Positions 1-48,613 of a stretch of 64,000 nucleotides of DNA are shown in pieces (positions within the stretch are counted from its first letter, which is position 1; every line of letters starts with the position of its first letter). The position numbers and the translations under genes are program-made. This DNA is from an uncultured Acidobacteriia bacterium. GTDB taxonomy: Bacteria; Acidobacteriota; Terriglobia; Bryobacterales; Bryobacteraceae. The stretch is from assembly GCA_903875575.1 (NCBI GenBank), contig CAIQWJ010000033.1, positions 62,001 to 126,000 of the forward strand. The letters run 5' to 3'. Below the pieces are notes generated by a model that was not told where the DNA came from, ran no database searches, and saw nothing but the letters and a program-made list of their open reading frames with translations.

Positions 1-806
1 GCGAACGTCACGAAGCTGATCTTACCGGGTGGCTTGCCGTAGATCCAGTATTCGGTTTCGAGGCCATCCTTCGTCGTCTCGCGGCCATGCTGATCCGGCG
101 CACCGCCCATAACGAGCCGAACCTGATCGCGGGTCATCCCCACGATGGGGCGTTTGTCGGCGAGCGCCTGCTGCATCTCGGGCGACAGTGTCTCGGTATA
201 GATGGTGGCCGCCGAGTGCTGATCGAAAGTCATGATCGGCTCCAGCATCTTCTTGACGGCGGCTGAATTCAGGCCCTCCATGGGCTTGCGGAATACGACC
301 ACGATGTAGGTGCCGAGCGTCGGTGAAGACGAACCCACCACGCCGCCGTTATCGATCTGGGTCTGCTGCTGGGTCTGTGTCGTGGAAGCGCCGCCCATCC
401 CGGTCTGGATGCGATCGTACCAGTGGACACCGCTGGTGATCCCGCCGTTGATATCGAAGAGCATCCGGTCGCCCTCAAAGGTGACCTTGGTGATGCGGAT
501 CTGTTCGCCCGCCCGCGCCGCCGGCCCGTAGGCTCGGAACGCCTCTTCCCAATACTTGCGGTTAAACGTGCCATCCACGAAGAATTCGAGCGGCTTCTTC
601 GAGCGCGCCAGCGGTACTTTCATCACGGCAAACTCGGAATCGAGGCCGCGCAACAGTTCGATTCGCTCGTCTTCGGTGAGCTTGTCGCTCGGCCCGAGGA
701 CGCCTGCCTGCACGGCGGTGCAGGCCAGCAGAGTCAGGATGGCGAGACAGGTTCCACCGGGTCCGGCACCAGATAAGCCGTGCCTTTGGCCACCGGCACT
801 TTCCAT
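1..806 (-). CDS. Secreted hypothetical protein, C-terminus beyond the window edge
   Basis: The reading frame is open from the left edge to an ATG at 806 and has no stop in the window, so the 3' end is missing. The N-terminus contains a hydrophobic stretch (GTCLAILTLLACTAVQAG) that reads as a signal peptide, preceded by about 18 non-hydrophobic residues. That makes the ATG at 806 somewhat unsure, but I see no better in-frame start. The mature part has a Gln/Thr-rich linker (TQTQQQTQ) and then a segment beginning VGMTRDQVRLVMGGAP, which resembles the small SmpA/BamE-type fold motif (G-M-x-x-x-x-V). I do not recognise the family. The start overlaps the end of the upstream CAAX protease gene by about 70 bases, suggesting translational coupling. 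A function cannot be given. Confidence 0.7.
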   Translation of the reverse strand, partial: MESAGGQRHGLSGAGPGGTCLAILTLLACTAVQAGVLGPSDKLTEDERIELLRGLDSEFAVMKVPLARSKKPLEFFVDGTFNRKYWEEAFRAYGPAARAGEQIRITKVTFEGDRMLFDINGGITSGVHWYDRIQTGMGGASTTQTQQQTQIDNGGVVGSSSPTLGTYIVVVFRKPMEGLNSAAVKKMLEPIMTFDQHSAATIYTETLSPEMQQALADKRPIVGMTRDQVRLVMGGAPDQHGRETTKDGLETEYWIYGKPPGKISFVTF

Positions 807-1600
807 ATGGCGGCAAGAAGCAGGACGATCACCAACGACGTGACAACGCTCGCCTCGGGTCCGTATTTTCCGCCACTCCATAAGTCTCCGGCGCTCCAGA
901 CCAGTTCATACCCGGTCACTCTTATTGTAAGACCACTCAGACCCACCCCGAGGAACGGCAAAACCGTGTTCCAGGCGAAGTGAATCCCGGCGGGTAGCCA
1001 CAGATCGCGCGACCGCAACACCGCCGCACCGAACACGATACCAAAACCGGCCGTATTGATTGTGCTGATGGTCGTAGACCCAGGATTGCCTGCGTGCATG
1101 ATACCGAACAGTGCGCCCACGCCCAGAATCGCCGCCCACCGGCCATACCCCTTCATCAGATATTGCAAGGTGAAGCCGCGAAAGACGATTTCTTCGGCCA
1201 ACGCACCGCAGAACAGCAGCACCGGCGTGAACAAAGCCCCTCGCCAGGAGACGTCGGCGTTCGCGACGTTTTGGAAGTGAGCGAACCCAAACGCGATGGC
1301 CGGGCCGACTGACAGAAGGGCCGCGACAGCGCCCAGAACCACTCCGGTCAGCAGATTACGCTTCGCACCGTCATTCCACAGGAGGCCGATGTCCGCGAGC
1401 TTGTGCGACTCGAAAATAGCTATTGCCAAAGCCGACGCAACAGCTGCCGCAACAAGCTTCGCCACCGTCAAAGCGATCATCTGGCCGCCCATCACCTGAC
1501 CCACCGGTACCAGCACCCACAGCAGCGCGCGATAGAAGAGGAAACAGGTCGCCGCACCGATCAACGGTCGCAGCGGATCGCGACTGGCTTCCCGCGGCAC
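734..1600 (-). CDS. CPBP family intramembrane metalloprotease (CAAX protease-like)
   Basis: A roughly 288-residue polytopic membrane protein. It carries the three hallmarks of the CPBP/Abi family: the EExxxR motif (AEEIVFRG, about residues 135-142), a downstream F-x-x-x-H (LFGIMHAG), and a later H-x-x-x-N (HFAWN). The glutamates and histidines form the metal and catalytic site in this family. Several hydrophobic segments flank these motifs. The start was taken as the GTG at 1600, two bases after the stop of the kinase gene, because a GGGAG sequence lies about 10 bases upstream. A longer open frame reaching 1762 lies inside the kinase gene and has no membrane-protein character. The context (kinase upstream, secreted protein downstream) does not reveal the substrate. 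In bacteria such proteins act in protein processing, bacteriocin immunity or unknown roles. Confidence 0.88.
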   Translation of the reverse strand: MPREASRDPLRPLIGAATCFLFYRALLWVLVPVGQVMGGQMIALTVAKLVAAAVASALAIAIFESHKLADIGLLWNDGAKRNLLTGVVLGAVAALLSVGPAIAFGFAHFQNVANADVSWRGALFTPVLLFCGALAEEIVFRGFTLQYLMKGYGRWAAILGVGALFGIMHAGNPGSTTISTINTAGFGIVFGAAVLRSRDLWLPAGIHFAWNTVLPFLGVGLSGLTIRVTGYELVWSAGDLWSGGKYGPEASVVTSLVIVLLLAAIWKVPVAKGTAYLVPDPVEPVSPS

Positions 1601-31383: not shown

Positions 31384-31447
31384 TCAGTAAGGACCGGTTG
31401 TGCAAAACCTGCGCCACGTCTCCCGCGCGGCGAAAGGAAACAGCAAA

Positions 31448-34222
31448 ATGACTCAGGCTACGCAGAGCGGGGCGGAAGCGTCCTCAAAGCCACTTTGGTC
31501 CGCGCCAAGTCAACAGGAACGCCTTGCCGAGTTAACCGCCGGCACCGACGACAGCCGCAAGGAGCTGCCTCTAAAACGTGATATACGTTCCCTGGGAATT
31601 TTGCTGGGCAAGGTGCTGGTTGAGCAAGGCGGCCTGCCGCTCTTTGAAACTGTGGAGACATTGCGAAGGCAACTCATCGAACATCGCGAAAGTGGCGGTG
31701 GGCTGATCGAGGAAGCGAAAGCCATTGTTGCGTCGCTTGATACCGAAACCGCAAACCGTGTCACCAAGGCGTTCTCCATTTACTTTGAGCTCAGCAATCT
31801 TGCTGAGACGAATCATCGAAAGCGCCGGCGGCGGGCGGCTCAGCTGCACGCCGAACGTAAACCGCTTCCGGGCACGTTTCACGGAACTCTGTTGCGGCTC
31901 AAAACCCTGGGCGTCTCCGCGGAGACGGCGTTCGAGGCCCTCGGCCATATTTCGGTGGAGCCTGTATTCACGGCACATCCCACGGAATTCGCGCGCCGTG
32001 CGGTACTTGCAAAGCGTGCATTGATTGCCCGGCATTTGGAGGCGCTCGATGAGCTGCCGCTATCCGACGCCACCGCCGCTCGCTGCCAGGAAGCTATTCT
32101 CGCGGAAATAACGGGTCTTTGGCAAACCGACGAAATTCGAAACGAGCGCCCGACGGTGTCCGATGAGATCCGCTTCGGCCTGGAGTATTATCCGCTATCC
32201 CTTTTTGAGACACTGCCCAACGTATACGAGGAGATCGCCCACTCTTTTCGCGGCGTGTACGGAATTGAACCGGAACTGTCACGCCTGCCGGTCTGCCTGC
32301 GATTTGGCTCGTGGATCGGCGGCGATCGCGACGGCAATCCGTTTGCAACCGCCGCACGTACGCGTGAGGCGCTCACGCTGGCGCGACAGACCGTGCTCGA
32401 TCACTATCTGGCGACTATCCGCACCCTGATTCGACGCTTGCGCGTGTCGGTTCGCCAGGTTCCCGCTTCGGCCAGTCTCAAAGAACGTCTCGACGACTAC
32501 GAGCGCTCCATGGCCGGACGGCCAGACGGACTCCAGCGGACATCCAGCACGGAATGCTACCGGCGCTTTCTTCTGTTCCTATCGGCGCGCGTGCAGTCCA
32601 TACGCGACGACTCAGGGGCCTCCACCGCGTACCAGTCGCCGGCCGAACTGGAGCACGATTTGAAGCTGATTCGCGAGAGTCTCATTCAGAACGGCGGCGC
32701 GAGACTGGCAGCTGCGATGGTGGAACCGCTTCTGTTGAACGTGCGGCATTTCGGTTTCCAGCTACATACGCTGGACGTCCGGCAGCACCGGAACGTGCAT
32801 GCCGGCGCACTGGCTGAAATCCGCGAGAAGAGTTCGGGGACCACCGCGACCCTGGCTGAGGAATTAGCGGGCGCGTCGCATGAATTGCTGGATACAATGC
32901 GCTCCATCGCGGAGCAGAAGGCTCTGCGTGGCGGCAACGTGATTCGAGCTCACATCATCAGCGGAACGGAAACCGGGGAGGACATTTTCGACGTCATCCG
33001 CATCGCCACTCTGGCGGGAGTCCGTATCGCAGGTTCCGGCGAGGATCCGGGCCTGATGCCGGTGCCTCTGTTTGAATCGATTGATGCGCTCAAGCGCGCG
33101 CCCGCAATCATGCGGAGGGTCTGGTCGGATCCACAATATGCGGAACTGGTCAAGTCCTGGAACGGTTGGCAAGAGATCATGCTGGGCTATTCCGACTCCA
33201 ATAAAGACGGGGGCATGCTGACCAGCACCTGGGAGTTGTATAAAGCCCATCGCGCTTTGCACGACGTCGCCCGCGAATACGGCGTCAAACTGCGCCTGTT
33301 CCACGGGCGCGGCGGGACAGTGGGGAGGGGTGGTGGCCCCACGCACCGCGCGATCCTGGCGCAGCCTTCGGGCGATTTCTCCGGCAGTATCAGGATTACC
33401 GAGCAAGGTGAGGTGCTCAACTGGAAATACTCCGACCCGGTACTCGCCGAGTGGAACCTCGAAGTGATGATCGCGGCCAGTCTGGAGGCATATCTGCGCC
33501 CCTATTCCGAATCGCCTCCGGAGGAAGACATCATCATTCAGTGCATGGAGGTTATGTCCGCCGACGCTTTTCTTTACTACCGGCGCAGCATCGCCGAAGA
33601 TCCTGAAGTGCTGCGTTATTTTGAGGAAGCGACTCCCGTCAACGAGTTGGAACACGCCCACATCGGATCACGGCCGAGCCGACGTGGCGGCAGCCGCAGA
33701 GTGGAAGATATGAGGGCGATCCCGTGGGTTTTTGGGTGGATGCAAAGCCGCCACGCGGTTCCGGCGTGGTTCGGGGTTGGCCATGCAATCGAGCGCTTCA
33801 TGAATCGCGGCAACGCGGAGCTGGAGTTGCTGCAGCGAATGCTGAAGCAGTTTCCCCTATTTGCGGAGTTGGTCAGCAACGTGGAATTGGCCATGGCCAA
33901 AGCAGACATGTCGATTGCCAAACTGCATGCGTCACTCGTCAGCGATGAGCGGGTCCGAGATCGCGTGTACGCGATGCTGCTGGAAGAATTCGAACGCACC
34001 AGGGGTGTCATATTTTTGCTGAAGGGCACCTCGGCACTCGTCGAGCGCAATCCCGTTCTGGCTCGGTCCATTCAGCTGCGCAACCCGTACGTGGATCCGC
34101 TCAGCCTGATTCAGGTGGAACTGCTCCGCCGGAAGCGTGCCGGAAACGTCGATGAAAAGATTAACCGCGCCCTCGCTTCAACCATGAGCGGCCTCGCAGC
34201 CGGGCTGCACAATACAGGATAA
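31448..34222 (+). CDS. ppc: Phosphoenolpyruvate carboxylase
   Basis: A 924-residue PEP carboxylase, of normal length. Catalytic motifs present are FTAHPTEFARRAVLAKRALI with the essential His, FGSWIGGDRDGNPF, LGYSDSNKDGGMLTSTWELY, and the glycine loop FHGRGGTVGRGGGPTHRAIL. It fixes bicarbonate onto PEP to give oxaloacetate, the main anaplerotic reaction. The ATG at 31448 was preferred over a GTG at 31400 because AAAGGAAACAGCAAA precedes it and it gives a polar N-terminal extension rather than a basic one. It is the last gene of the divergent series beginning with dabB. No clear terminator follows. Confidence 0.97.
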   Translation: MTQATQSGAEASSKPLWSAPSQQERLAELTAGTDDSRKELPLKRDIRSLGILLGKVLVEQGGLPLFETVETLRRQLIEHRESGGGLIEEAKAIVASLDTETANRVTKAFSIYFELSNLAETNHRKRRRRAAQLHAERKPLPGTFHGTLLRLKTLGVSAETAFEALGHISVEPVFTAHPTEFARRAVLAKRALIARHLEALDELPLSDATAARCQEAILAEITGLWQTDEIRNERPTVSDEIRFGLEYYPLSLFETLPNVYEEIAHSFRGVYGIEPELSRLPVCLRFGSWIGGDRDGNPFATAARTREALTLARQTVLDHYLATIRTLIRRLRVSVRQVPASASLKERLDDYERSMAGRPDGLQRTSSTECYRRFLLFLSARVQSIRDDSGASTAYQSPAELEHDLKLIRESLIQNGGARLAAAMVEPLLLNVRHFGFQLHTLDVRQHRNVHAGALAEIREKSSGTTATLAEELAGASHELLDTMRSIAEQKALRGGNVIRAHIISGTETGEDIFDVIRIATLAGVRIAGSGEDPGLMPVPLFESIDALKRAPAIMRRVWSDPQYAELVKSWNGWQEIMLGYSDSNKDGGMLTSTWELYKAHRALHDVAREYGVKLRLFHGRGGTVGRGGGPTHRAILAQPSGDFSGSIRITEQGEVLNWKYSDPVLAEWNLEVMIAASLEAYLRPYSESPPEEDIIIQCMEVMSADAFLYYRRSIAEDPEVLRYFEEATPVNELEHAHIGSRPSRRGGSRRVEDMRAIPWVFGWMQSRHAVPAWFGVGHAIERFMNRGNAELELLQRMLKQFPLFAELVSNVELAMAKADMSIAKLHASLVSDERVRDRVYAMLLEEFERTRGVIFLLKGTSALVERNPVLARSIQLRNPYVDPLSLIQVELLRRKRAGNVDEKINRALASTMSGLAAGLHNTG

Positions 34223-37683: not shown

Positions 37684-39465
37684 ATGCGAAAAACAATTGT
37701 AAAGCTTGCTTACGCAAGCATGGCGGCAGCGTGCGTGGAATTGGCACTGGCGGCGAATGGCGCTCCTGCCAGCCACGTCTCGGGCGCGTTTGCCCGGGAG
37801 TTGGGAACGCCCCACTTTGCAGTAGTTCCGATCATCATCAACACCGGCGCAGCGCTGTTTCCCACGATTATGGCGTTTCTGGCGAACATTGCGGCGGTGG
37901 CTTTCAATCCCCGTGCATTGAGTCAGTTTCTGCGGACTCGCTGGCGTTTGGTTTCCGCGGTGACGGCGTCGCTGGCAGTGGTGTTTTTTGTTGGGGTGCC
38001 TTTGTTGCGACCGGCACCTCTGTCACGAAACGGGGCGAAGGGGGCAACGGCGCCGGCACAGATCGATTGGGCGAAAGTTGCCACGGATTTGATTGCGCAG
38101 GAGAAACTGCATCGAACCGGGGACGCGCCGGTCTTGATGGCGGCTGCGAGCGCACCCGGCGAGGTTGTTGCGGCCCCGCCCAGCGACGCCTCACCAGCCA
38201 GTCCGGCCAGCACGCCGACCAATACGGCGCTGGTGAATACCCCGGTCGCTGCGGCGCCGAACTCTCCGCAAGCTTCCAGCGGTGGGGGAGCGTCACCCGC
38301 CGGGCTGACGCCGCTTTGGAGCTTTCAGCCGGAGGACGGACTTTTTCTGGGGTCGCCGGCGATTGTGGGGAAGCGAATCTACGTCTCGGCCAATCAGACG
38401 GATCTGGGCGGTTATACCGGGCTGCTGGCGAGTCTTGATTACGACACCGGCAAACCAATCTGGCAGGTGACGGAAATGAACGGCAGTCCATTACCGCCGT
38501 TTTTCAGTTCACCGGCGGTGACGGCGGATGGCAAGTATCTGGTGATTGGGCAGGGCCTGCACCAGGACCGCAACAGTTCGCTGCTTTGTTTTGAAACCGC
38601 GACCGGGAAGCTGCATTGGGCTGTGAAGACGACACTGCATATTGAATCGTCGCCTGTCATTCAGGGCGATATGGCTGTGGTGGGGGCGGGTGCGATTGAG
38701 GGCAATGACGGTAAGGCCGTAGGCGATCCCGGCTTCGTGTTCGCGGTGCGAATTTCAGATGGGAAACAACTCTGGAAGCAGGCGGTGAACGATCCGGAAA
38801 GTTCTCCGGCGATTGATTCGGGGGGGATTGTCTACATTGGCAGCGGCTTCAACGGTCAGGCTGTGGTGGCGCTGCGGAGTGGCACCGATGAAGAATTGGC
38901 GGCGCAGAAGCTGAGCAGGATTGTGTGGCGGACGCCGCTGGCGTATCCGATTACCGCGCCCGTGACTCTGGCCGGCGAATTGGTGATTGTAGGCGGCGGG
39001 AATGGCGATATGGTCCATTCCGATAAGAACCCGCAGGGGTTGGTGGTGGCGCTGAATCGCAAGACGGGACAGATTGTGTGGCAGACGAAGTTTGAAGATT
39101 CCGTTCTGGGGCGCATTGCGGTGCGCGACAACATGATGATCTGCCCGCTGCGCACGGGAGAAGTGGCGGCGCTGGCGGTGGCAGACGGTCATTTGCTGTG
39201 GCGGTCCCGCGTGAGCGGAACAGCACCGCTGCTGGTGGGCGGCGCGCTCACGAAGGATCGCGCTTATGTGGTGAGCAATGACGGCTACCTGGCGGCGTTC
39301 GCGACGGCTACCGGGAAGCTGCTTGAGAAGGTTTATCTGAACGATCAGAAGAAAGCGGGCACGGGCCTGTCGCTTTCATCGCCGCAGGTTTCCGGCAACC
39401 GGATCATCGTGGGCAGCGAGACCGGCGGGTTGCGGGCGCTGGTGGGCACGGAGGGTGCGAAATGA
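37684..39465 (+). CDS. Membrane-anchored PQQ-type beta-propeller protein
   Basis: A 593-residue protein with hydrophobic segments at about residues 7-24, 45-74 and 89-108, then an Ala/Pro-rich linker to about 210. From about 215 to the end is a propeller of PQQ-enzyme/BamB-like repeats: LLASLDYDTGKPIWQV, LLCFETATGKLHWAVKT, FAVRISDGKQLWKQAV, VALNRKTGQIVWQTKF and ALAVADGHLLWRSRV. The repeat form A-x-D-x-x-T-G-K-x-x-W is clear. There is no obvious dehydrogenase active site, so it is likely a scaffold or sensor. The stop overlaps the start of the next gene (ATGA). It is the first gene of a six-gene locus. The ribosome binding site is AGGAGCGGGGAA. A direct repeat CTGTAAC-N4-CTGTAAC sits about 20 bases upstream of the start. 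Confidence 0.88.
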   Translation: MRKTIVKLAYASMAAACVELALAANGAPASHVSGAFARELGTPHFAVVPIIINTGAALFPTIMAFLANIAAVAFNPRALSQFLRTRWRLVSAVTASLAVVFFVGVPLLRPAPLSRNGAKGATAPAQIDWAKVATDLIAQEKLHRTGDAPVLMAAASAPGEVVAAPPSDASPASPASTPTNTALVNTPVAAAPNSPQASSGGGASPAGLTPLWSFQPEDGLFLGSPAIVGKRIYVSANQTDLGGYTGLLASLDYDTGKPIWQVTEMNGSPLPPFFSSPAVTADGKYLVIGQGLHQDRNSSLLCFETATGKLHWAVKTTLHIESSPVIQGDMAVVGAGAIEGNDGKAVGDPGFVFAVRISDGKQLWKQAVNDPESSPAIDSGGIVYIGSGFNGQAVVALRSGTDEELAAQKLSRIVWRTPLAYPITAPVTLAGELVIVGGGNGDMVHSDKNPQGLVVALNRKTGQIVWQTKFEDSVLGRIAVRDNMMICPLRTGEVAALAVADGHLLWRSRVSGTAPLLVGGALTKDRAYVVSNDGYLAAFATATGKLLEKVYLNDQKKAGTGLSLSSPQVSGNRIIVGSETGGLRALVGTEGAK

Positions 39466-42400
39466 TGGCGTCCAGAAGATACACGCGGGCGCTGATCGAT
39501 TGCCGTGACACCGCGCTGGTGGGCGGCAAGGGTGCCAGCCTGGGGAAGCTGATCCGCGCGGGGTTTCAGGTGCCCGGCGGGTTTGTTGTCAACACTCATG
39601 CGTATCGTTTGGCCTACACGCCGCATCCGGAGCCGGGAAATACGGCGGAAGTTCCGGCGGAGGTGGCAGAAGAGATTCGCTACCGCTATGAGGAGATGGG
39701 GCGGGGTCCGGTGGCGGTGCGATCTTCAGCCACGGCGGAAGATTTGGCGGCGGCATCGATGGCCGGGCAGTGCGAAACGTTTCTGGATATCAGTGGCGAC
39801 GAGGCGCTGATCGAAGCGGTAAAGAAGTGCTGGGCCAGTCTACATACGGAGCGGATACACGCTTATTTGGGCGAGCATGGAATCGACCAGACTGTGGTCG
39901 CAATGGCAGTGGTGGTGCAGCGTCTGGTGCCGGCGGATGTAGCCGGGGTTCTGTTTACTGCGGACCCGAGCGGCGGCGGCCGGAAGGAGATGCTGATCGA
40001 CGCCAATTGGGGCCTGGGCGAGACGGTGGTGGGCGGCCATGTGCAGCCCGATGTGTTGCGGCTGGATGCGGCGACGGGTCGCGTGCTCACGGCGTCGATT
40101 GCGGATAAGACGGTTTATATTTCGGCGGGAAGCGCTGGAGAGAGGCCGGTTGAAGAAGCGCGGAGACGGCAGGCCTGCCTGAACAGCCGGGATGTTCACA
40201 GCCTCTGGCAACTCGGCAAGCAGGTAGAGGAATACTTCACGACGCCGCAGGATATCGAGTGGGCGATCTACGACGGCAAGCTGCATTTGCTGCAGGCGCG
40301 GCCGATCACGACGCAGCGGGAAATTGAAGCGCGGCAGGAAGTGATGAGCCTCACGCGCGAGCACTTGCGAAAAGAGATTGCGGCGGAGCGCGGGCCGTGG
40401 GCGCTGCACAATCTGGCGGAGACGCTGCCGCATCCGACGACGCTGACGTGGAGCGTCATTCAGCCGTTCATGTCGGGTTCCGGCGGGTTCGGCGGGATGT
40501 ACCGGAAGGCCGGATTTGAGCCTTCGGCAGCGATTGACCGGGAAGGTTTCCTGGAGCTGATTGCTGGCCGGGTCTACATGGATGTGACGCGGTCACCGCA
40601 AATGTTTTGCGAGAATTTCCCGTTCGCTTACGATTTGCAGCAACTGGTGAGCGATCCGGAGGCATCGCAGAAGCCGCCTTCGGTGCCATGCGGGTCGTTT
40701 TCGACGCGGATGAAGGCCGCGGGACTGCTGGGGAGGGCGGCGGGCACGATTCGAAAGCTTTCAGAAAGCGCCGATTCGGATTTTCGCGGCAAGATTGTTC
40801 CGGAGATCAAGGCATGGGTTGCCCGGTCGAGCGCGCAGGACCTTAGCGCGCTTTCGACGGAAGAAGTAATCGCGCTCTGGGTGGAGCGCGAGAAGCAGGT
40901 GCTGGACGTATTTGGTCCGGAAACCCTGATGCCGAGTCTGATTTGCGGCATGGTGTGGGCGGACCTGGAGACATTTCTGCACGAGAATTTCTGGGACGAG
41001 CACGCCGACAGTTTGTTGCGTCTCATCGCAGCGGGCGGGAATGCGGACCCCACGGTTGTAGCGAACGCAGAATTATATGAGGTAGCGCACGGCAAGAGGA
41101 GCCTGGAGGCGTGGCTGACAGCGCACGGGCATCGGGGGCCGGGGGAATTCGATCTGGGGTCTCCGAGGTGGCGCGAGCAACCCGACCAGCTTCGGGATAT
41201 GGCGGCACGGCTTGCCACGGGCGAGCCTCCGATGGAACGTTTCCAGCACGGCACGGATGCCGCGGCGACGCAGGCCGCGAAACTGCGAAGTCAGCTTTCG
41301 GGTGCGGCGGCGGCGGAATTCGACCGGTTGCTGGAACTGGTGCATCGCTTCATGCCTTTCCGCGAGGAAGGGAAAGATTACCTGATGCTGGCTTACGACC
41401 AGGTGCGCGAGCTGGCTCTGGAGCTGGGACGGCGGCTGGATGTGGGCGATGGCGTTTTTCACCTGACGCGGGACGAGATTTTCGACGCGCTGCGGGTGGG
41501 ATTTGCACCGCATCATTTGATTGAGCAGCGGCAGTTCACGTATCGGGCGGAGATTCGGCTCTCGTTGCCGCGGGTGATCGACGCCGCTGCGATTGAGCGA
41601 CTGGGCGAACCGGCTGAAGTTGAGATGAAGGCCGGGGCGTACGGAGCGCTGTCAATTTCCGCAGGGCGCGCGTCGGGGCCGGCGAGAGTGCTGCATGAGG
41701 CAACCGAGGCGGGAGATTTTGGCACGGGCTACATTCTGGTATGCCCGAGCACAGACCCCGCGTGGACGCCGTTGTTCGTCAATGCGGTGGGACTGGTGCT
41801 GGAGTGCGGCGGAGCGCTTTCGCATGGTGCCGTGGTGGCGCGCGAGATGGGTCTGCCAGCCGTGGTGCTTTCCGATGCCACGCGGATTTTTCGGAATGGC
41901 GAACAGATCGAGATTGATGGCAACAACGGTTGGGTGGGACGCGCGCGGCCGGATTCCGGCGGCCACGCGGCCGAAGCAGAGGTGGCAGATCCTTCGGATA
42001 CACGAATTCCGCGAGCGCTGATTCCGCCGCCCTCCGGAGCGAAGGATCGGCGGGCCGCTTCCTGGCGTAACGCTGCGCTCGGAATCTGGCTGGTCTATTT
42101 GCTGGGTTTCTTCCTGCTGCCGAAGGGCGGGCTGCAGGAGCCTTCGCTGGCGATCATGGATTTCCTTTTCTGGCCGCTGGTGGTGGCGTTTGGCAAGCCT
42201 GCGACGGTGGCATTCGTGGCATTGGCCGTTGCCACAGTGACGCTGCTGGTGCAGAAGTTCACGACGGACAACCGTCAACTGGTGGAAGCGAAACGACGGG
42301 CTGCGGCGTTGACAGAGGAGGCCAAAACTTTGCCAGCGGAATCTCCGCGGCGCAGGGCCATGACGGAACTGGCGGCTTCGGTGAACAGTCGACTGCTGAT

Positions 42401-43127
42401 GGCGCGTCTGGTGCCGATCTGCCTGCTGCTGGGGCCGCTGATGATGCCGTTTGTGTGGTTCAAAGACCGCATCGATCCAACAGTGCCAGGTGCGGTTGCC
42501 GGGTCGCCAGTGCAGATTGTGGCGACGGTAGATGGCGAATGGGGGCAGCCGGTTCGCATCGAGCTTCCGGCCGGAATGGCGCTCGATGAGACAACTGCCG
42601 CCGTTCGCTCGCTGCCGCCGATTCGCAGAACCCTGGAGCATTTGCTGACGCTGTATCGTGAGCCACAGAGTAATCCGGGTGGGCCGTGGGAGTTACAGGT
42701 GGCTCCGGATGTGGCAAGAATGCAGACGGCCAGTAACCTCAAGAGCTACCTGGATGCAGGACTGCCGCCGCAGGGCATGACGTGGACGCTTCGGCCAGCC
42801 GCGGGCACCGCCGGGCGATTTCCGGTGAGTGTGGTGACGGATGGGCATCCGCCGGTTGGCATCAACGTGGTGCTGGGGAACCAGTATCCGCCAGCGCCGC
42901 TCGCCGCGGCGGGCGGCGCGGGATCGCCGCTGAAAGAAGTGCGGGTTGTGTATCCAGGTTCTGCAACGAAGCCGGTTTTCTGGCAACCGCTGGCTGCGTT
43001 GGGCACGGATAGCGAGGTGGCGCTGGTGCGGTGGCTGGCGAGTATGGATATCGGCTGGCTGTGGCTGTATCTGATCGTTTATATGCCGGTGCTGTTTGGT
43101 CTGCAGATTCTCCTGAAGGTGGCGTGA
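39462..43127 (+). CDS. PEP-synthase-like phosphotransferase fused to a DUF106/EMC3-like membrane domain
   Basis: A 1221-residue multidomain protein. Residues 1 to about 290 are a pyruvate phosphate dikinase/PEP synthase ATP-binding domain: LVGGKGASLGKLIRAGFQVP, PVAVRSSATAEDLAAASMAG, EYFTTPQDIEWAIYDGKLHL and QARPIT. A middle region follows. At about 770-850 is the swivelling phosphohistidine domain, LECGGALSHGAVVAREMGLP, with His788. The PEP/pyruvate-binding TIM barrel of true PEP synthase is not evident, as in rifampin phosphotransferase-type enzymes. From about 865 the protein has an added membrane part: helices near 870-890 and 898-930, then FTTDNRQLVEAKRRAAALTE, then helices near 975-1000, resembling the DUF106/EMC3-TMCO1 (YidC-like) fold. 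A soluble domain and a C-terminal helix (about 1199-1221) complete it. This fusion is unusual; the substrate is unknown. Confidence 0.85.
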   Translation: MMASRRYTRALIDCRDTALVGGKGASLGKLIRAGFQVPGGFVVNTHAYRLAYTPHPEPGNTAEVPAEVAEEIRYRYEEMGRGPVAVRSSATAEDLAAASMAGQCETFLDISGDEALIEAVKKCWASLHTERIHAYLGEHGIDQTVVAMAVVVQRLVPADVAGVLFTADPSGGGRKEMLIDANWGLGETVVGGHVQPDVLRLDAATGRVLTASIADKTVYISAGSAGERPVEEARRRQACLNSRDVHSLWQLGKQVEEYFTTPQDIEWAIYDGKLHLLQARPITTQREIEARQEVMSLTREHLRKEIAAERGPWALHNLAETLPHPTTLTWSVIQPFMSGSGGFGGMYRKAGFEPSAAIDREGFLELIAGRVYMDVTRSPQMFCENFPFAYDLQQLVSDPEASQKPPSVPCGSFSTRMKAAGLLGRAAGTIRKLSESADSDFRGKIVPEIKAWVARSSAQDLSALSTEEVIALWVEREKQVLDVFGPETLMPSLICGMVWADLETFLHENFWDEHADSLLRLIAAGGNADPTVVANAELYEVAHGKRSLEAWLTAHGHRGPGEFDLGSPRWREQPDQLRDMAARLATGEPPMERFQHGTDAAATQAAKLRSQLSGAAAAEFDRLLELVHRFMPFREEGKDYLMLAYDQVRELALELGRRLDVGDGVFHLTRDEIFDALRVGFAPHHLIEQRQFTYRAEIRLSLPRVIDAAAIERLGEPAEVEMKAGAYGALSISAGRASGPARVLHEATEAGDFGTGYILVCPSTDPAWTPLFVNAVGLVLECGGALSHGAVVAREMGLPAVVLSDATRIFRNGEQIEIDGNNGWVGRARPDSGGHAAEAEVADPSDTRIPRALIPPPSGAKDRRAASWRNAALGIWLVYLLGFFLLPKGGLQEPSLAIMDFLFWPLVVAFGKPATVAFVALAVATVTLLVQKFTTDNRQLVEAKRRAAALTEEAKTLPAESPRRRAMTELAASVNSRLLMARLVPICLLLGPLMMPFVWFKDRIDPTVPGAVAGSPVQIVATVDGEWGQPVRIELPAGMALDETTAAVRSLPPIRRTLEHLLTLYREPQSNPGGPWELQVAPDVARMQTASNLKSYLDAGLPPQGMTWTLRPAAGTAGRFPVSVVTDGHPPVGINVVLGNQYPPAPLAAAGGAGSPLKEVRVVYPGSATKPVFWQPLAALGTDSEVALVRWLASMDIGWLWLYLIVYMPVLFGLQILLKVA

Positions 43128-43131: not shown

Positions 43132-43872
43132 ATGAACACAAAAAACAAACAACTACTGGCAGGACTTGCCGCGGTGGCGGCACTTTCGATAGGGCTGGCA
43201 TCGCAGCGCGCCTCAGGACAACCGCCCGGGCTCGCGGGTAACGCCGGGGGGGCGAATGCCGCGATTGAGGCAATCAAACCGCTGATCAAGGCGACGGATG
43301 CCGAATGGCACGTCATCGGACCGAAGCTGCAGGCGGTGGTCACGGCGCGGCAGGCTGCCGTGACTTACACGGCAGCCGGGGGCAGAGGCGGATTCGGCGG
43401 CGGGGGATTTCCCGGCTTCGACGGCGCTGATAGTTTTGCCGGGCCGGTGGCGGACACGCAGGGGTTTGGCGGCCGGGGCGGTTCGGGCGGGCGCGGTGGA
43501 TTCGACCCTGCCGCTTTCTTTGGTGGCCGAGGAGGTTCGGGCGGACGCGGCGGCTTCGATCCGGCCAATTTTCCCGGTGGCCGCGGAGGTTTTGGCGGTC
43601 CTGGCGGTGCGAGCGGACGCGGTGGATTTGGAGGTGGCATGCCCATGGATTTCGGCACCAACAACAATGCCGTAGGTACGGCACTGGCGGAACTCAAGAC
43701 GGCGCTGGCTGATGCCTCCACTTCGCCGGAACAGGTCAAAGCGAAACTGGCTGCGGTTCGCAGCGCGCGGCAGAAGGCGATCAACGATCTGGCTGTGGCG
43801 CAAAAAAGCCTGCTGCCGCTGCTGACCGCAAGTCAGGAAGCCACGCTGGTGAGTTTGGGTTATCTCGATTAG
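43132..43872 (+). CDS. Secreted Gly-rich protein, Spy/LTXXQ-like ends (copy 1)
   Basis: A 246-residue protein with a signal peptide (ending near QRASGQ). The N-terminal helical segment is IKPLIKATDAEWHVIGPKLQ. A Gly/Phe/Arg-rich middle (about residues 80-185) contains an internal duplication of GGRGGSGGRGGFDPA. The C-terminal helical segment ends LLPLLTASQEATLVSLGYLD. The two helical ends together resemble periplasmic Spy/CpxP-type chaperone hairpins, which carry an LTxxQ motif, with a disordered glycine tract inserted; this is an inference. It starts four bases after the PEP-synthase-like fusion gene. It is paralogous to the protein encoded at 45987. Confidence 0.78.
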   Translation: MNTKNKQLLAGLAAVAALSIGLASQRASGQPPGLAGNAGGANAAIEAIKPLIKATDAEWHVIGPKLQAVVTARQAAVTYTAAGGRGGFGGGGFPGFDGADSFAGPVADTQGFGGRGGSGGRGGFDPAAFFGGRGGSGGRGGFDPANFPGGRGGFGGPGGASGRGGFGGGMPMDFGTNNNAVGTALAELKTALADASTSPEQVKAKLAAVRSARQKAINDLAVAQKSLLPLLTASQEATLVSLGYLD

Positions 43873-43930
43873 TCGCTCCCTTGCGGGCGCGGCTCTTTAG
43901 GTATTGATTGGAAACGGGGAACTTTTAACA

Positions 43931-45949
43931 ATGGTCCACTTCAAGAATCTGAAATTTCGACGCCTGTTTTCGGGTGTTGCGCTTACCGGTCTTTGCCTGG
44001 TTCTGGCGAGCCAGATGCAGGCCTACATCGACCTTGCTCCGACGCTGAGCAAGATCATTGGCGATGCGCAGAAGATTGCCGTAGTGGAGGTGACTGGGTT
44101 CGACGAAGCTACCCATGCCCTCACGCTGAAGGAAGTCCGGAGCCTGAAGGGCGCGGCGGGCCAGACGGCGATTCGTCACGATGTGGGATCGTCGGACGGC
44201 AATGTCGTGCCACCCGCGATCGTCCAGTGGGCGGAAGCGGGCGCGAGGGGAGTGCTGTTCTCATCGCGCACGACCGGGCTGCTTTGTTTTGGCGACGGCT
44301 GGTATCAGGTGAAGTCTTCCAATGGTGAGTGGAAGCTGGGAGTGGATCGTTCCGATCTCTCGCTGGCCTATTACGGCTCCATTTCGCGACTGGCGGACGG
44401 GGTTGCGACGATGCTGAGCGGTGGCGATGCGATTCTGACGATGATTCAGCACGGTGCCGACGACAGCGCGAGTTTCGATCTGGCGCTGAACCGCATGAAT
44501 CTTCCGGGCGTCATCCGGGTGCAGCGTATTCGCGCGAATATGACCATGCCCGCCACGGTCATGGCAGTATCGGCCAATCCCGTGTATGTGATCGGACCCG
44601 GCCGTGTGGGAGAAGAGGAATTGCCCGGGCTTTTGCAGCGCCTGTCCTCAACGGATGCCAGTGTGCGGGCGGAAACCGCAGGTGATCTGCTGCAACTCGG
44701 GCGCAAGGCGGCGTCCGCCGAAGGCCCGTTAGTGAAACTACTGAGCGATCCCGCTGTGCGCGTGCGTATTTCGGCCGCGGCCGCGCTGCTTCGTATCACC
44801 GGCAAGAATGACGCGGCGGTGAAGGCGCTCGGCCTGGGCCTGACGGATGGCGATGCGTCGGTTCGACGCGCTTCGGCTGAAGCGGTTGGCCTGGCAGGCG
44901 CAGGCGCGGGTCCGCTGGTGAGCAACCTTGCCGCGGTGCTCAAGGATCAGAATGTTCAGGTGCGACGCGCCGCCATTCGGGCAGTGGCCACACTCGGCCC
45001 GCTGGCGTCGGCGGCGGCCGGTGCGGTGGTCCCGCTGCTGAACGATGCGGGGCTGATGGTGGAAGCAGCGGATGCGCTGGGGAGAATCGGGACGGCGGCG
45101 CGACCGGTTCCCGCGCGGCTGATCGCCATGCTTGGCACGGAGCAGCCGATGGCGGTGCGGATGGCGGCGGTGCGCGCGATGTCGCAAATTGGCGGACCGG
45201 AGGCCAGGCCTGCGGTCGATTTCATTATCAAGGCGATGCCGGACGCGGCTGAGATCGACTCTTACAACATGTATATTTACCTGTCTCTGCTGGGGCCGAC
45301 TGCCAAAGACGCCATTCCGACACTGGAGAGTTCGAAACTCATGAACCCGGTTTTGCCGGCGGCGACGTTGTGGGCAATCAAGGCCGACAGTCTTCCGTGG
45401 CAGGCGACGGGCGGGGGTGTGGGTGGCTTCGGCGGGTTTGGTGGATTTGGCGGACCGGGCGGCCCGGGTGGGCCGGGGGCACCCGCTGTGACTGGTGGGG
45501 CGGCCGCCGCCGGTGGACCTGGTGGACCTGGCGGCCCCGGATTTGGTGGACCTGGCGGACCCGGTGGCCCGGGTGGATTTGGGGGCGGAGACATGGGCTT
45601 CGATCTGTTTTCCACCATGTATGTCGCCTACTTCCGGGAGTTGGGGGAACGTCTGCGCCCTGTGGCATTGATGCTCCTCAAGCAGATTCAGGATGGCACC
45701 GACACCAGCGCGCCGGCATGGGGCTACAAGTTGCTCACGTGTGCCCCCGCCGACACCAACGCCCAGCTCTCGGCCGCACTTGCTTCGAGCGATCTGGCAA
45801 CGCGGGAGCGCGCGGCGGTCGCGTTCGGTTACATGGGTGCGGCAGCCGCTCCGGCGCGAGCGACGCTTCAGGCGGCGCTCGACAAGGCCTCCACGGAACC
45901 GGAGAAGCGTCTGATCGAATGGGCACTACGCGAAACCGCGATAGACTAG
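43931..45949 (+). CDS. Secreted HEAT-repeat protein (copy 1)
   Basis: A 672-residue protein with a signal peptide (LTGLCLVLASQMQAY). An N-terminal domain of about 200 residues follows (IDLAPTLSKIIGDAQKIAVV, LLCFGDGWYQVKSSNGEWKL). Residues about 235-440 are at least five HEAT/PBS-type helical repeats (for example SVRRASAEAVGLAGAGAGPL, VRRAAIRAVATLGPLASAAA, VRMAAVRAMSQIGGPEARPA). Next come a Gly/Pro-rich spacer (about 508-565) and a conserved C-terminal domain starting FSTMYVAYFRELGERLRPVA. HEAT arrays are binding scaffolds. The start is taken at ATG 43931 with GGGGA upstream. It pairs with the Gly-rich gene before it, and the pair is repeated downstream. Confidence 0.85.
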   Translation: MVHFKNLKFRRLFSGVALTGLCLVLASQMQAYIDLAPTLSKIIGDAQKIAVVEVTGFDEATHALTLKEVRSLKGAAGQTAIRHDVGSSDGNVVPPAIVQWAEAGARGVLFSSRTTGLLCFGDGWYQVKSSNGEWKLGVDRSDLSLAYYGSISRLADGVATMLSGGDAILTMIQHGADDSASFDLALNRMNLPGVIRVQRIRANMTMPATVMAVSANPVYVIGPGRVGEEELPGLLQRLSSTDASVRAETAGDLLQLGRKAASAEGPLVKLLSDPAVRVRISAAAALLRITGKNDAAVKALGLGLTDGDASVRRASAEAVGLAGAGAGPLVSNLAAVLKDQNVQVRRAAIRAVATLGPLASAAAGAVVPLLNDAGLMVEAADALGRIGTAARPVPARLIAMLGTEQPMAVRMAAVRAMSQIGGPEARPAVDFIIKAMPDAAEIDSYNMYIYLSLLGPTAKDAIPTLESSKLMNPVLPAATLWAIKADSLPWQATGGGVGGFGGFGGFGGPGGPGGPGAPAVTGGAAAAGGPGGPGGPGFGGPGGPGGPGGFGGGDMGFDLFSTMYVAYFRELGERLRPVALMLLKQIQDGTDTSAPAWGYKLLTCAPADTNAQLSAALASSDLATRERAAVAFGYMGAAAAPARATLQAALDKASTEPEKRLIEWALRETAID

Positions 45950-45986
45950 AGCGATTTTCACGATCGTAAAAAGGAACGGCAACCGG

Positions 45987-46688
45987 ATGCACTCAAGAAG
46001 ATATTTGATTTCAGGAATTTCCTCGGTCTTTTTTGGGGCACTTGCCCTGACTGCACAACCGGCACCGCAGGCCGCAACCGGCGGCAGCGCTCCGGCGGCG
46101 AGTGCCACGGCACCAAGCGTACAGTCCCTGATGAAGGCGACCGATGAGGAGTGGAAGATCATCGGCCCGAAACTGCAGGCGGTGACGACGGCGCGGCAGG
46201 CTGCGATCTCGTATACGGCGAGCGCTGGTGGCCGTGGCGGGTTTGGCGGAGGGCCTGGCTTTGGCACGGACAGCTTTGAAGGGCCAGGGAATGGAATGGG
46301 TGGAGGCCGCGGCGGTGGCGGTGGCGGTCGTGGCGGTGGCTTTGGTGGGCCGGGTGGACCGGGCGGTGGTTTCGGCGGTCCAGGCGGACCGGGAGGCCCG
46401 GGCAATCAGGGCGGCGGTGGCCGCGGCGGGGGTGGTGGCGGACGTGGCGGCGGGCCGGGTGGACCTGGCGGCGGCGGTAACAATGCGGTGAGCACCGCGC
46501 TCGCGGAACTCACGACGGCGATCGCGGACACGACCAGCACCCCGGAGCAAATCAAAACGAAAGTGGGAGCTGTGCGGACGGCACGCCAGAAGGCAGTGTC
46601 CTATCTTGCCACGGCGCAGAAGGCGTTGCTGCCGCTGCTGACGGCCGATCAGGAGGCTCTGCTGGTGAGCCTGGGTTATATCGATTAA
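45987..46688 (+). CDS. Secreted Gly-rich protein, Spy/LTXXQ-like ends (copy 2)
   Basis: A 233-residue paralogue of the protein at 43132. It has a signal peptide (ISGISSVFFGALALTAQ), VQSLMKATDEEWKIIGPKLQ matching copy 1 closely, a Gly-rich centre (about residues 75-170) dominated by GGP and GRGG units, and the end LLPLLTADQEALLVSLGYID. The glycine tract differs in unit composition from copy 1 while the helical ends are conserved, so the ends are under selection and the tract is not sequence-constrained. The ribosome binding site is AAAGGAACGGCAACCGG. Confidence 0.78.
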   Translation: MHSRRYLISGISSVFFGALALTAQPAPQAATGGSAPAASATAPSVQSLMKATDEEWKIIGPKLQAVTTARQAAISYTASAGGRGGFGGGPGFGTDSFEGPGNGMGGGRGGGGGGRGGGFGGPGGPGGGFGGPGGPGGPGNQGGGGRGGGGGGRGGGPGGPGGGGNNAVSTALAELTTAIADTTSTPEQIKTKVGAVRTARQKAVSYLATAQKALLPLLTADQEALLVSLGYID

Positions 46689-46720
46689 TCGAAGAGCGGA
46701 CGAACCGGAGAAACCAGAAT

Positions 46721-48613
46721 ATGACGCACGCAAGACATCGCAATTCCAGAGGCCGGTTTTCCCGCCTTGCTCTCATCTGCCTGTGCCTGGGACTGGTCAG
46801 CCAGATGCAGGCCTACATCGATCTGGCACCGACCATCAGCAAGATTATCGGCGATTCGCAGAAGATCTCCCTGGTGGAGGTGGTCAGTTTGAATGAGACC
46901 ACGCATGTCCTGACGCTGAAGGAAGTCAAGACGCTGAAGGGCGCGGCCACGCCGGATCCGATTTTGCACAGCGTCGCGTCGCCGGAAGGCAATCTCATTC
47001 CGCCGGCTATTGTGCAGTGGGCCGACGTTGGCGCGCGGGGCGTGCTGTTTGCGTCGCGCACGACCGCGCTGCTTTGTTTCGGCGATGGCTGGTATCAGGC
47101 CAAGTCGTCCGGCGGGGAATGGAAGCTGGGCGTGGATCGCTCCGATCTTCCACTGGCTTATTACGGTTCAGTCACACGGCTGGCGGATGGAATCGCGACC
47201 ATGCTGAAGGGCGGCGACGCGATTATTACGACCGTGCAGCATGGCGCGGATGACACGGCGGCGAGCTTCGATCTCGCTTTCAACCGGATGAATCTTCCGA
47301 ACGTGATTCGCATTCAGCGCATCCGCGCGAATATGGCGATGCCGGGAACGGTGATGGCGGTGTCGGTGAATCCGGCTTACGTGGTTGGACTGGGTTTGGT
47401 GGGCGAAGACGAACTGTCGGCACTGGTGCAGCGGCTGGCATCACCGGATGCAGCGGTTCGCACGGAAGCAGCGGAGGATATTCAGCATCTTGGTCGCAAG
47501 GCGCGTTCCGCAGAGGGTGCGTTGGTGAAGCTGTTGAGCGATCCCGCAGAGCGCGTGCGCATTGCAGCGGCTTCCACGCTGCTGCGCGTGGCTGGCAGTA
47601 ACAGCGAGGCGGTCAAAGTACTCTCGGGCGGTTTGACGAGTACAGATGCGGCGGTACGTCGCGCAGCTGCCGATGCTGTGGGCAGAGCAGGCACGGGCGG
47701 GGCTGCGCTGGTGGCGAACCTTGCGACCGCGCTCAAGGATCAAAATGTGCAGACGCGCCGCGCGGCGGTTCGGGCAGTCGCTACGCTGGGGCCTGTGGCT
47801 TCGGGTGCAGCGAGTGCACTGGTGCCGCTGCTGAAAGATCCGGCACTCATGATTGAAGCGGCGGACGCGCTGGGGCGGATCGGGCCTGCGGCGCGGCCGG
47901 TTCCGGCTGGTCTGGTTGCGATGCTGGCCGCCGATCAGCCGATGGCCGTGCATTTGGCCGCAGTGCGAGCGATGGCGCAGATTGGAGGACCGGAAGCGCA
48001 TCCGGCCGTGGAGTTCCTGATTAAGGCACTGCCCTCGATGGATGAGATTGGCGAGTACAATGCGGAGATTTTTCTCTCCATGCTGGGGCCGGTGGCGACC
48101 GATGCCATCCAGGCTTCGCAGAGCACCAAGCTCACTCACCCTGTGTTGCCGAGTGCGACGCTGTGGGCGATCAAGGCGGAAGGGCTTCCCTGGCAGACGG
48201 CGGGAGCCGGAGGGCGTGGCGGATTCGGCGGCGGGTTTGGCGGCGGTGGCGGAGGCATGGGTCTGGATCTGGTTTCCACCATGTATGTCGCTTACTTCCG
48301 GGAGTTGGGGGAACGGCTGCGGCCCGTGGCGATGATGCTGTTGAAGCAGATTCAGGATGGCACGGACAAGAGCACGCCGGATTGGGGTTACAAGTTGCTG
48401 GCTTGCGCTCCGGCGGAGTCGGTGGCGCAACTGACAAAGGCGATCGCTTCGGATGATCTGGCAACTCGTGAGCACGCGACGGTGCTGTTGGGTTATATGG
48501 GCCCGGCTGGGTATCCGGCGCAGGCGAAATTGCAGGTGGCGCGGGATAAGGCACCGACGGAGCGGGAGAAGCGGCTGGTGGAATGGGCTTTGCGGGAGAG
48601 CGAGGCGGAGTAG
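46721..48613 (+). CDS. Secreted HEAT-repeat protein (copy 2)
   Basis: A 630-residue paralogue of the protein at 43931, co-linear along its whole length. The signal peptide is followed by AYIDLAPTISKIIGDSQKIS, then the N-terminal domain with LLCFGDGWYQAKSSGGEWKL. HEAT repeats lie at about residues 230-430, then a shorter Gly-rich spacer (GGRGGFGGGFGGGGGG) and the C-terminal domain STMYVAYFRELGERLRPVAM. The two copies differ most in the spacer. The start is preceded by CCGGAGAAACCAGAAT. It is the last gene of the six-gene locus. The opposite-strand gene after it ends about 75 bases downstream. Confidence 0.85.
   Translation: MTHARHRNSRGRFSRLALICLCLGLVSQMQAYIDLAPTISKIIGDSQKISLVEVVSLNETTHVLTLKEVKTLKGAATPDPILHSVASPEGNLIPPAIVQWADVGARGVLFASRTTALLCFGDGWYQAKSSGGEWKLGVDRSDLPLAYYGSVTRLADGIATMLKGGDAIITTVQHGADDTAASFDLAFNRMNLPNVIRIQRIRANMAMPGTVMAVSVNPAYVVGLGLVGEDELSALVQRLASPDAAVRTEAAEDIQHLGRKARSAEGALVKLLSDPAERVRIAAASTLLRVAGSNSEAVKVLSGGLTSTDAAVRRAAADAVGRAGTGGAALVANLATALKDQNVQTRRAAVRAVATLGPVASGAASALVPLLKDPALMIEAADALGRIGPAARPVPAGLVAMLAADQPMAVHLAAVRAMAQIGGPEAHPAVEFLIKALPSMDEIGEYNAEIFLSMLGPVATDAIQASQSTKLTHPVLPSATLWAIKAEGLPWQTAGAGGRGGFGGGFGGGGGGMGLDLVSTMYVAYFRELGERLRPVAMMLLKQIQDGTDKSTPDWGYKLLACAPAESVAQLTKAIASDDLATREHATVLLGYMGPAGYPAQAKLQVARDKAPTEREKRLVEWALRESEAE

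Follow-up and report, generated by a model that had tools for sequence, protein, structure and literature searches.

Fusion gene and neighbouring genes

The window analysed here, a stretch of 64,000 nucleotides from a soil bacterium, contains at 39462..43127 a gene for a protein of 1221 amino acids in which a dikinase of the rifampin phosphotransferase (RPH) type is followed by a DUF106/EMC3-like membrane module. This gene and all features described below lie on the plus strand. The earlier note had placed an open reading frame at these positions, and the frame is present there and intact. The gene directly upstream (37684..39465) encodes a PQQ-type beta-propeller protein of 593 amino acids (PQQ_2, E=2.2e-44) with two N-terminal hydrophobic helices in the hydropathy profile; the two genes overlap by 4 nt where its stop meets the start of the fusion gene. 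The propeller domain is predicted to face the periplasm. An identity with EMC1 was considered for this protein and is not supported, as Beta-prop_EMC1_N scores 32.6 bits, under its cut-off of 34, and PQQ_2 fits far better at 152.3 bits. Of the window-type fused loci whose contig extends far enough, 10 of 10 have a propeller gene preceding the fusion.

Downstream lies a gene for a small Gly-rich protein (43132..43872), which is a probable member of the operon and is also found in three related genomes (G362, G499 and G495). It is followed by a HEAT-repeat protein (43904..45949; HEAT_2, E=3.1e-19) that is probably secreted, judging its N-terminus by eye, a second Gly-rich protein similar to the first (45987..46688) and a second copy of the HEAT-repeat protein (46721..48613). 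The N-terminal domain of the first HEAT-repeat copy is shared with an FG-GAP protein of the Planctomycetota loci (hhalign 94.8%, E=5.3e-8, with a maximum of 3.0% for ten column-shuffled control alignments).

The earlier note had itself named the false joining of two genes during sequencing or assembly as the finding that would undo its proposal, and counterparts of the two halves do stand apart as separate genes in other genomes. Independent genomes of two phyla, however, carry the junction unbroken. Among Bryobacteraceae, G495 has the full 1221-residue open reading frame at 80% identity to the window protein; G499 has the junction on a contig that stops within the enzyme half; and G362 has it with a frame break near residue 525, distant from the junction. 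In Planctomycetota, fusion frames of 1175-1246 amino acids are found at six loci (L039, L055 and L057-L060), and another of 1106 amino acids (L056) is truncated by the start of its contig. An artificial joining is refuted by these independent genomes and has a negligible probability. A single-sequence search across the phylum matched the window alone (1 of 297), and a search within the order gave matches in 7 of 257, three of them weak (G303, G371 and G308; E 7e-4 to 4e-3). A plasmid collection contained no homologue at E<=0.1. A literature search found neither a description of this system nor experiments on these proteins.

The dikinase half

Residues 1-827 comprise three domains. The ATP-grasp (PPDK_N) domain occupies residues 1-300 (39462..40361; PF01326, E=3.3e-78) and carries K23, R87, T106 and E266. 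The helical acceptor-binding domain of the RPH type follows at residues 301-730 (40362..41651) with the motif R634-E635-x-x-K638. The phosphohistidine swivel domain (PF00391) at residues 731-827 (41652..41942) carries the catalytic His788 (41823-41825) within GGALSHG, and a linker of approximately 30 residues separates it from the first membrane helix, TM0. The ATP-binding and phosphohistidine domains that the earlier note had described are thus both present, and its impression that a PEP-binding barrel is missing holds, PF01326 and PF00391 being the only Pfam families in the whole protein. Its description of the enzyme as PEP-synthase-like needs correction, since the succession of ATP-grasp, acceptor domain and His swivel without a barrel is the layout of rifampin phosphotransferase. 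The identity of a PEP synthase was rejected on this ground and on the TIGR01418 score (318.1 bits against a cut-off of 739.75).

A structure look-up of the AlphaFold model against 988 chains gave RPH-Lm (5hv1) as the top match (Z 33.5, 716 residues, span 1..808). In a separate alignment, RPH-Lm covers 63-288 and 541-825. The list from the full-length structure look-up is taken up by matches to the enzyme half and is silent on an Oxa1 fold either way. Eight of the eight RPH active-site residues compared are kept: Lys22, Arg117, Thr136, Glu297, Arg666, Glu667, Lys670 and His825 of RPH-Lm correspond to K23, R87, T106, E266, R634, E635, K638 and H788 of the window protein, a mapping taken from the RPH-Lm alignment with Gln336/Gln337 of RPH-Lm left out. 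With the residue roles described for RPH-Lm in the available text of PMC4844700, where the Glu297Ala variant is still active, the catalytic residues of both half-reactions (K23, R87, T106, R634, E635, K638 and H788) are kept. Across 27 rows of the family, H788, R634 and E635 are each conserved in 27 and K638 in 25.

The RPH-like layout extends over the whole dikinase half, and the protein might accordingly be read as a membrane-anchored enzyme inactivating rifamycin. This is very improbable, as the NCBIfam model of rifamycin-inactivating phosphotransferases (NF041857) gives 401.9 bits against a curated cut-off of 999, and drug inactivation has no evident use for an operon that conserves propeller and EMC3-like genes. 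The fusion enzyme has the domain order and catalytic residues of RPH-Lm (5hv1, 5fbs); unlike RPH-Lm, it has a membrane module on the same chain or in a neighbouring gene, usually together with a propeller. It also differs from HpeHI, a two-component dikinase described as using phenolics as substrates (PMC12167813, in the part available).

The membrane half

The C-terminal half begins with an extra helix, TM0 (residues 860-885, 42039..42116), that is not found in unfused homologues. The amphipathic helix EH1 and core helix TM1 follow (residues 892-934, 42135..42263), then a charged cytosolic helical hairpin, H2/H3 (residues 937-988, 42270..42425), core helix TM2 (residues 990-1004, 42429..42473), an Ig-like beta domain in the TM2-TM3 loop that is predicted to be periplasmic (residues 1011-1165, 42492..42956) and core helix TM3 (residues 1198-1218, 43053..43115). 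The AlphaFold model (pLDDT 86.0) shows the core elements from EH1 to TM3 in this sequence, and hydropathy and charges likewise give three core helices with the hairpin between the first two. The four hydrophobic helices and the charged segment between the second and third of them were already recognised in the earlier note, and the extra soluble domain that it reported can now be described as an Ig-like insert. W999 and R1003, at the end of TM2, are two of the three invariant columns in an alignment of 18 rows (A7). In a hydropathy and charge scan, positive charges lie before TM0 and after TM1, which would place the enzyme and the hairpin inside and the Ig domain outside; TM0 would hold the dikinase in the cytosol. 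The crude hydropathy scan also marks three segments within the soluble enzyme half.

By sequence, residues 849-1221 fall within the Oxa1 superfamily, in its DUF106/EMC3/TMCO1 branch, as the earlier note had suspected. A profile of 12 fusion C-termini searched against the PDB has the archaeal DUF106 protein MJ0480 (5c8j) as its sole significant match (E=5.1e-8; the next is 1.8), and the match improves to E=7.7e-14 when the profile is extended with unfused homologues. An independent profile from 18 homologues of a second class (class 2, described below) finds MJ0480 at E=1e-9. One unfused homologue (L063) scores 32.7 bits with PF01956, over the cut-off of 27.1; 7 of the 15 members of alignment A5 match this family at E<=1, and 7 of the 18 class-2 members do so at E<=0.1 (best 2.7e-4). 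In hhalign comparisons the membrane half aligns with unfused class-1 homologues at 98.6% and with class 2 at 99.1%, the latter covering core and insert. The membership of the window's own module is drawn from these family profiles; its sequence alone stays under significance, as Pfam is silent on it at E up to 5, and in the PDB it finds MJ0480 at E=1.5.

In a look-up of the C-terminal model against 985 chains, the top match was 7tut_8 from the multipass translocon (model 60..373, with 143 aligned at Z 7.9) and 6w6l_6 from the TMCO1 translocon ranked 13 (Z 6.4), values to be read with the fact that Z below 8 is common for unmatched models; both chains were taken as TMCO1 from entry title and length. 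The row after 7tut_8 is an unrelated designed peptide (Z 6.9). A Foldseek search of the C-terminal model against the PDB gave nothing at E<0.001, which speaks neither for nor against an Oxa1 fold.

The module shares with MJ0480, EMC3 and TMCO1 the order of amphipathic helix, TM1, cytosolic hairpin, TM2 and TM3. Unlike these proteins, it is bacterial, stands beside a genomic YidC and has an Ig-like domain between TM2 and TM3, the extra TM0 and an enzyme on the same chain. In the available text of PMC8887752 and PMC8675477, DUF106 is described as archaeal and EMC3 and TMCO1 as eukaryotic, and the one paper found to name PF01956 equates its non-archaeal members with EMC3 and TMCO1. YidC belongs to the same superfamily by descent (PMC8675477, in the part available); unlike YidC, the model of the module shows TM2 and TM3 with no additional TM pair in between. 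A YidC paralogue was considered and rejected, as PF02096 is silent at E<=5 and the PDB profile searches (E<=10) give MJ0480 and no YidC entry. The host genome also encodes a separate YidC (PF02096, E=3.4e-57).

Recurrence of the pair and possible function

Among 41 Planctomycetota genomes with matches, fusions occur in 8, and another 18 encode the halves in adjoining genes; these loci are mostly accompanied by a gene for a membrane-anchored PQQ-propeller. In a further search, gene neighbours were examined in 20 of the 47 matched genomes besides that of the window. A dikinase gene adjoins on the same strand in 18 of the 18 class-1 unfused genomes, a count that is partly circular because the classes were at first named from their neighbourhood. 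All unfused loci were therefore scored with sequence profiles of both classes, and 52 of the 52 sort as named, 33 of them absent from profile building. Class 2 is thus a second bacterial EMC3-like class distinguishable by sequence. Its loci have no dikinase nearby; phosphodiesterase genes (PF01663) precede the EMC3-like gene in 34 of the 34 examined, so the enzyme is not required by every EMC3-like member. Two divergent fusions (L121 and L122) and a cut one (L126) fit either class poorly (21-39 bits), and two weak matches, L067 (G890) and L077 (G590), were discarded as six profiles give nothing there at E<0.01. In a tree that omits partial or broken rows (L031, L032, L061, L063, L065 and L122), the fused and unfused states changed at least twice, which may represent two fusions or one fusion and one split.

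Sequence and predicted structure together make it nearly certain that a single chain combines a catalytically complete RPH-type dikinase with a DUF106/EMC3-type Oxa1-superfamily core bearing an Ig-like domain in its TM2-TM3 loop. As the halves are adjacent genes elsewhere and were fused, or split again, more than once, they very probably cooperate at the inner membrane with the periplasm-facing propeller. The explanation as a whole, in which the linked dikinase and core cooperate and phosphate is passed to a membrane client, is rather likely. A tentative mechanism can be outlined. ATP would charge His788 with release of AMP and Pi, and the swivel domain would bring the phosphate to the R634/E635/K638 site. 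There it would pass to a hydroxyl of an acceptor held where the EMC3-like groove opens to the cytosol. Part of this acceptor could then be shifted by the groove into the membrane or through it, and the Ig domain and propeller would receive it there. Most likely, the acceptor is a client associated with the membrane; a polypeptide is a plausible candidate, short of a probable one, and a lipid or glycan carrier is only slightly less so. Without such a client, the membrane half would be an anchor only.

The arrangement resembles the ER membrane complex, with its EMC3 core and EMC1 propellers, in that an EMC3-like core gene stands beside a gene for a membrane-anchored propeller predicted to face outward. 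It differs in including a dikinase and in a propeller nearer to PQQ_2/BamB than to EMC1. Some bacteria might, as a speculative reading, run an EMC-like machine of their own beside YidC. An Oxa1 core of the archaeal/eukaryotic type would carry the Ig domain in the periplasm and have the PQQ propeller as its platform, and an ATP dikinase within the same polypeptide would drive or gate it through phosphoryl transfer; the sister class would couple its core to phosphodiesterases. If so, this would be, to our knowledge, the first Oxa1-superfamily module covalently joined to an ATP-consuming enzyme. Oxa1-type insertases are not known to require ATP, and a core joined to a dikinase therefore offers a direct handle. 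If phosphoryl transfer alters the action of the core, this small and testable system could connect chemistry with membrane insertion or with the movement of lipids, and RPH-type dikinases would gain a role beyond the phosphorylation of drugs and aromatic compounds. The DUF106/EMC3/TMCO1 branch is in any case present in operons of two bacterial phyla and, in the window's genome, beside YidC.

It is unlikely that the EMC3-like part has lost transport and serves as an anchor, tethering a cytosolic RPH-type kinase that a periplasmic propeller sensor regulates via the Ig domain. In favour of an anchor, the characterised RPH-type enzymes covered by the available text of PMC4844700 and PMC12167813 use soluble small molecules, the Ig insert and propeller partner could sense a ligand, and the TM3 consensus, judged by eye, keeps few polar residues. 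An anchor needs just one helix, however, whereas the unfused genes of two phyla keep the entire three-helix core and hairpin, and class 2 has the same core with no dikinase nearby.

Lipid-linked phosphate chemistry is similarly doubtful. Here the dikinase would phosphorylate, on the inside, a lipid alcohol or a glycan linked to a lipid, and the headgroup would cross by way of the EMC3-like groove; in class 2, periplasmic phosphodiesterases would act on the opposite side and a similar module would return the product. No RPH-type enzyme is known to us to use a lipid substrate, which counts against this proposal, and among ten window genes scanned within or near the operon none is evidently related to lipid phosphates. 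In its favour, each of the two bacterial classes of EMC3-like proteins is associated with phosphoryl-transfer enzymes, although this parallel may be coincidence. Lipid scrambling by insertases has been reported (PMC10491306, in the part available), and each of the four class-2 phosphodiesterase proteins checked has an N-terminal hydrophobic segment.

Recurrence of the fused gene

The fused open reading frame (39462-43127, + strand) encodes a protein of 1221 aa. Its ATG shares four bases with the stop of the preceding gene (37684-39465), and a small gene begins four bases past its own stop. Pfam identifies PPDK_N at residues 62-294 (E=3.3e-78) and a phosphohistidine domain at 755-823 (E=8.4e-20); residues 849-1221 of the window's protein have no Pfam match. 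The C-terminal half is strongly matched in 4 of the 257 genomes of the order (G000, G495, G499 and G362), and three further order-level matches are weaker (E 7e-4 to 4e-3). G495, a genome of the same genus as the window's, carries an intact 1221-aa fusion with 80% identity to that of the window; in G499 the fusion is truncated at a contig end with the junction retained, and in G362 the frame breaks near residue 525, distant from the junction. Two peptide patterns scanned against genome contigs gave four confirmed loci: three appear to lie in genomes already named above, and one is in Planctomycetota (L039), where the entire fusion follows the same upstream gene as in the window. A search with profile A3 matched 11 of 343 Planctomycetota genomes, and the window-type fusion was read in six of these, one being truncated by the contig start (L056). 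The earlier note had weighed a novel architecture against a sequencing or assembly join; the intact copy, the retained junctions and the recurrence in Planctomycetota establish that the dikinase-EMC3-like fusion is real.

The two halves of the protein

In a single-sequence search of the PDB, the membrane half has one match at E<=10, the archaeal DUF106 protein MJ0480 (5c8j; E=1.5). Profiles make this relationship firm: MJ0480 is found at E=5.1e-8 with 12 fusion C-termini (next match 1.8) and at E=7.7e-14 when three unfused homologues are added (next match 1.5), the latter alignment covering TM1, hairpin and TM2 in order and, in a second and weaker stretch, TM3. Among the unfused homologues, the one in L063 scores 32.7 bits to PF01956, above the 27.1 cut-off, and those in L064 (22.3 bits) and L065 (25.5) fall below it. 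The AlphaFold model of residues 849-1221 (pLDDT 86.0, pTM 0.71) predicts TM0, an amphipathic helix, TM1, hairpin, TM2, a beta domain and TM3. The DUF106/EMC3-like domain proposed from the sequence is thus upheld by family profile, by the Pfam score of an unfused homologue and by predicted helix order. Translocon structures are suggestive only: out of 985 chains the top match is 7tut_8 of the multipass translocon (143 residues, model 60..373) at Z 7.9, where values below 8 are common, an unrelated designed peptide is second (Z 6.9), and 6w6l_6 of the TMCO1 translocon ranks 13 at Z 6.4, again in the common range below 8.

The beta domain resembles domains from many extracellular proteins, matches that may be read as Ig-like or FN3-like; at its position the class-2 profile described below matches filamin (E=0.002). 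It is inserted in the TM2-TM3 loop, one of two hypervariable places in the Oxa1 superfamily according to PMC8675477, the one open-licence paper found to name PF01956. Unfused homologues start at the amphipathic helix and have no TM0, a helix that the fusion would need for its enzyme to stay inside; the charge pattern agrees, in a crude hydropathy and charge scan that also flags three segments of the enzyme half. When 199 Planctomycetota were searched with PF01956, 6 had a match at E<=0.001, two of them over the cut-off; among 14 control genomes it matches only three archaea. Since it reaches few bacterial proteins, bacterial EMC3-like proteins may have been overlooked. Among open-licence papers, none was found on phosphoenolpyruvate synthase with EMC3, on the Oxa1 superfamily with Planctomycetes or on EMC3 with planctomycetes. 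The window's genome encodes its own YidC.

For the enzyme half, the top phmmer match in the PDB is rifampin phosphotransferase RPH-Lm (5fbs, E=2e-83), with alignment over residues 63-288 and 541-825. The predicted model of residues 22-1221 (pLDDT 82.8, pTM 0.66) likewise ranks RPH-Lm 5hv1 first among 988 chains, with Z 33.5 over 716 residues (span 1..808) and an rmsd of 19.6 that would reflect domain movement; PEP synthase 2ols (Z 26.7, 253 residues) covers model 1..262 only. The PEP-synthase-like phosphotransferase first suggested keeps its PPDK_N and phosphohistidine domains in Pfam, and its best structural match is RPH-Lm rather than PEP synthase. The RPH family profile gives 401.9 bits, under its cut-off of 999. 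Counterparts of conserved residues have been probed by mutation in RPH-Lm, as PMC4844700 describes. Mapped by alignment, these are K23, R87, T106 and E266 on the ATP side, the carrier H788, and R634, E635 and K638 on the acceptor side. Across 27 rows of the family, 11 of them fused and 16 unfused, H788, R634, E635 and E266 are kept in all and K638 in 25; counting rows with a letter at the position, R87 is kept in 25/25, K23 in 24/24 and T106 in 24/25. The enzyme half is thus a competent-looking dikinase of RPH layout.

Gene neighbourhoods and two classes of EMC3-like proteins

Profile A7 matched 41 of 392 Planctomycetota genomes, whose loci were first sorted by neighbouring genes. Six carry the window-type fusion, two a divergent fusion with the propeller gene downstream (L121, 3964-7512; L122, 2712-4727), and one locus is cut by a contig end (L126). 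In 18, unfused dikinase and EMC3-like genes adjoin on the same strand with domain-to-domain gaps of 7-129 nt, the dikinase coming first in 17 and second in L107. The remaining 14 belong to class 2, with no dikinase nearby. Wherever the contig extends far enough, the PQQ-type propeller gene lies upstream of the window-type fusion, in 10 of 10 loci (window, L030, L031, L039, L055, L057-L060 and L062), L032 and L056 being excluded as their contigs end too soon. Of the 18 unfused loci, 12 also have it upstream in the same orientation; contigs end too soon to show it in L065, L110, L112 and L114, the propeller of L064 is truncated at the contig start (profile E=3e-4, PQQ_2 9.7e-26), and that of L063 lies downstream on the opposite strand. 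Cytosolic phosphoryl transfer is probably coupled to the EMC3-like core and a periplasmic propeller. As client of that core, a membrane-associated polypeptide would be favoured by a small margin over a lipid or glycan carrier; a core serving only as anchor would come third.

An FG-GAP protein is encoded close by in L039, L055, L057, L058, L060 and L074-L076, was not seen at L059, and shares an N-terminal domain with the HEAT protein near the system in Bryobacteraceae loci (hhalign 94.8% at E=5.3e-8, where each of ten column-shuffled controls gave <=3.0%, best E 0.015). Glycine-rich and HEAT-repeat genes are doubled in tandem at 43132-48613 of the window; G362, G499 and G495 each show one pair. 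At L060 (2937-6919, - strand), the fusion is separated from the FG-GAP gene by two large genes, of 803 and 524 aa, that have no Pfam match at E<=0.001. Phosphoenolpyruvate carboxylase (31400-34222; PF00311, E=4.2e-271) is encoded about 3.5 kb upstream of the window's propeller gene, with no sign of belonging to the fusion operon.

Class-2 loci comprise those of the 14 Planctomycetota genomes (L117-L120, L123-L125, L127-L133) and 20 from Acidobacteriota (L155-L174); the latter were taken from the 47 genomes, the window's not counted, that a search of 287 had matched. The proteins have 251-303 aa in Planctomycetota, with one ORF read as 337. Their genes lie downstream, on the same strand, of at least one type I phosphodiesterase gene (PF01663) in 34/34 loci and of at least two in 31; the contigs of L124 and L161 stop before a second could be seen, and L170 has its second on the other strand. 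A third PDE-like gene lies further upstream in 12 of the 34. Built independently of the fusions, the class-2 profile finds MJ0480 at E=1e-9; its alignment with the module of the fusions (99.1%, E=6.6e-19) takes in both core and insert. The own-class profile outscores the other in 52/52 unfused loci, 33 of them unseen in training, and the classes are distinct by sequence as well as by neighbours. The membrane halves of L121 and L122 fit both profiles poorly.

Fusion history and divergent dikinases

When 31 dikinases were placed in a tree (11 fused, 16 unfused and 4 as outgroup), 10 fusions of the window type grouped together (100/99), and the fused L121 grouped with unfused dikinases (100/97). 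The tree requires no fewer than two switches between the fused and unfused states, which could be two fusions, or a fusion and a split. Within it, the window and G495 are nested among Planctomycetota fusions, a position suggestive of transfer into Acidobacteriota. In alignment A9, the motif RSGA..SMPGMMDT occurs in the ATP-grasp domain of L121 and of the five unfused dikinases shown there (L064, L074, L075, L076 and L113), and these five also have an insert in that domain; window-type fusions have neither. The motif resembles that of pyruvate phosphate dikinase, with one letter varying. A second dikinase in the window's genome (L003, contig C49, - strand) is encoded by two overlapping ORFs, one of 279 aa with the ATP-grasp domain (641-1480) and one of 569 aa with the swivel domain (1477-3186), a layout like that of two-component HpeHI.
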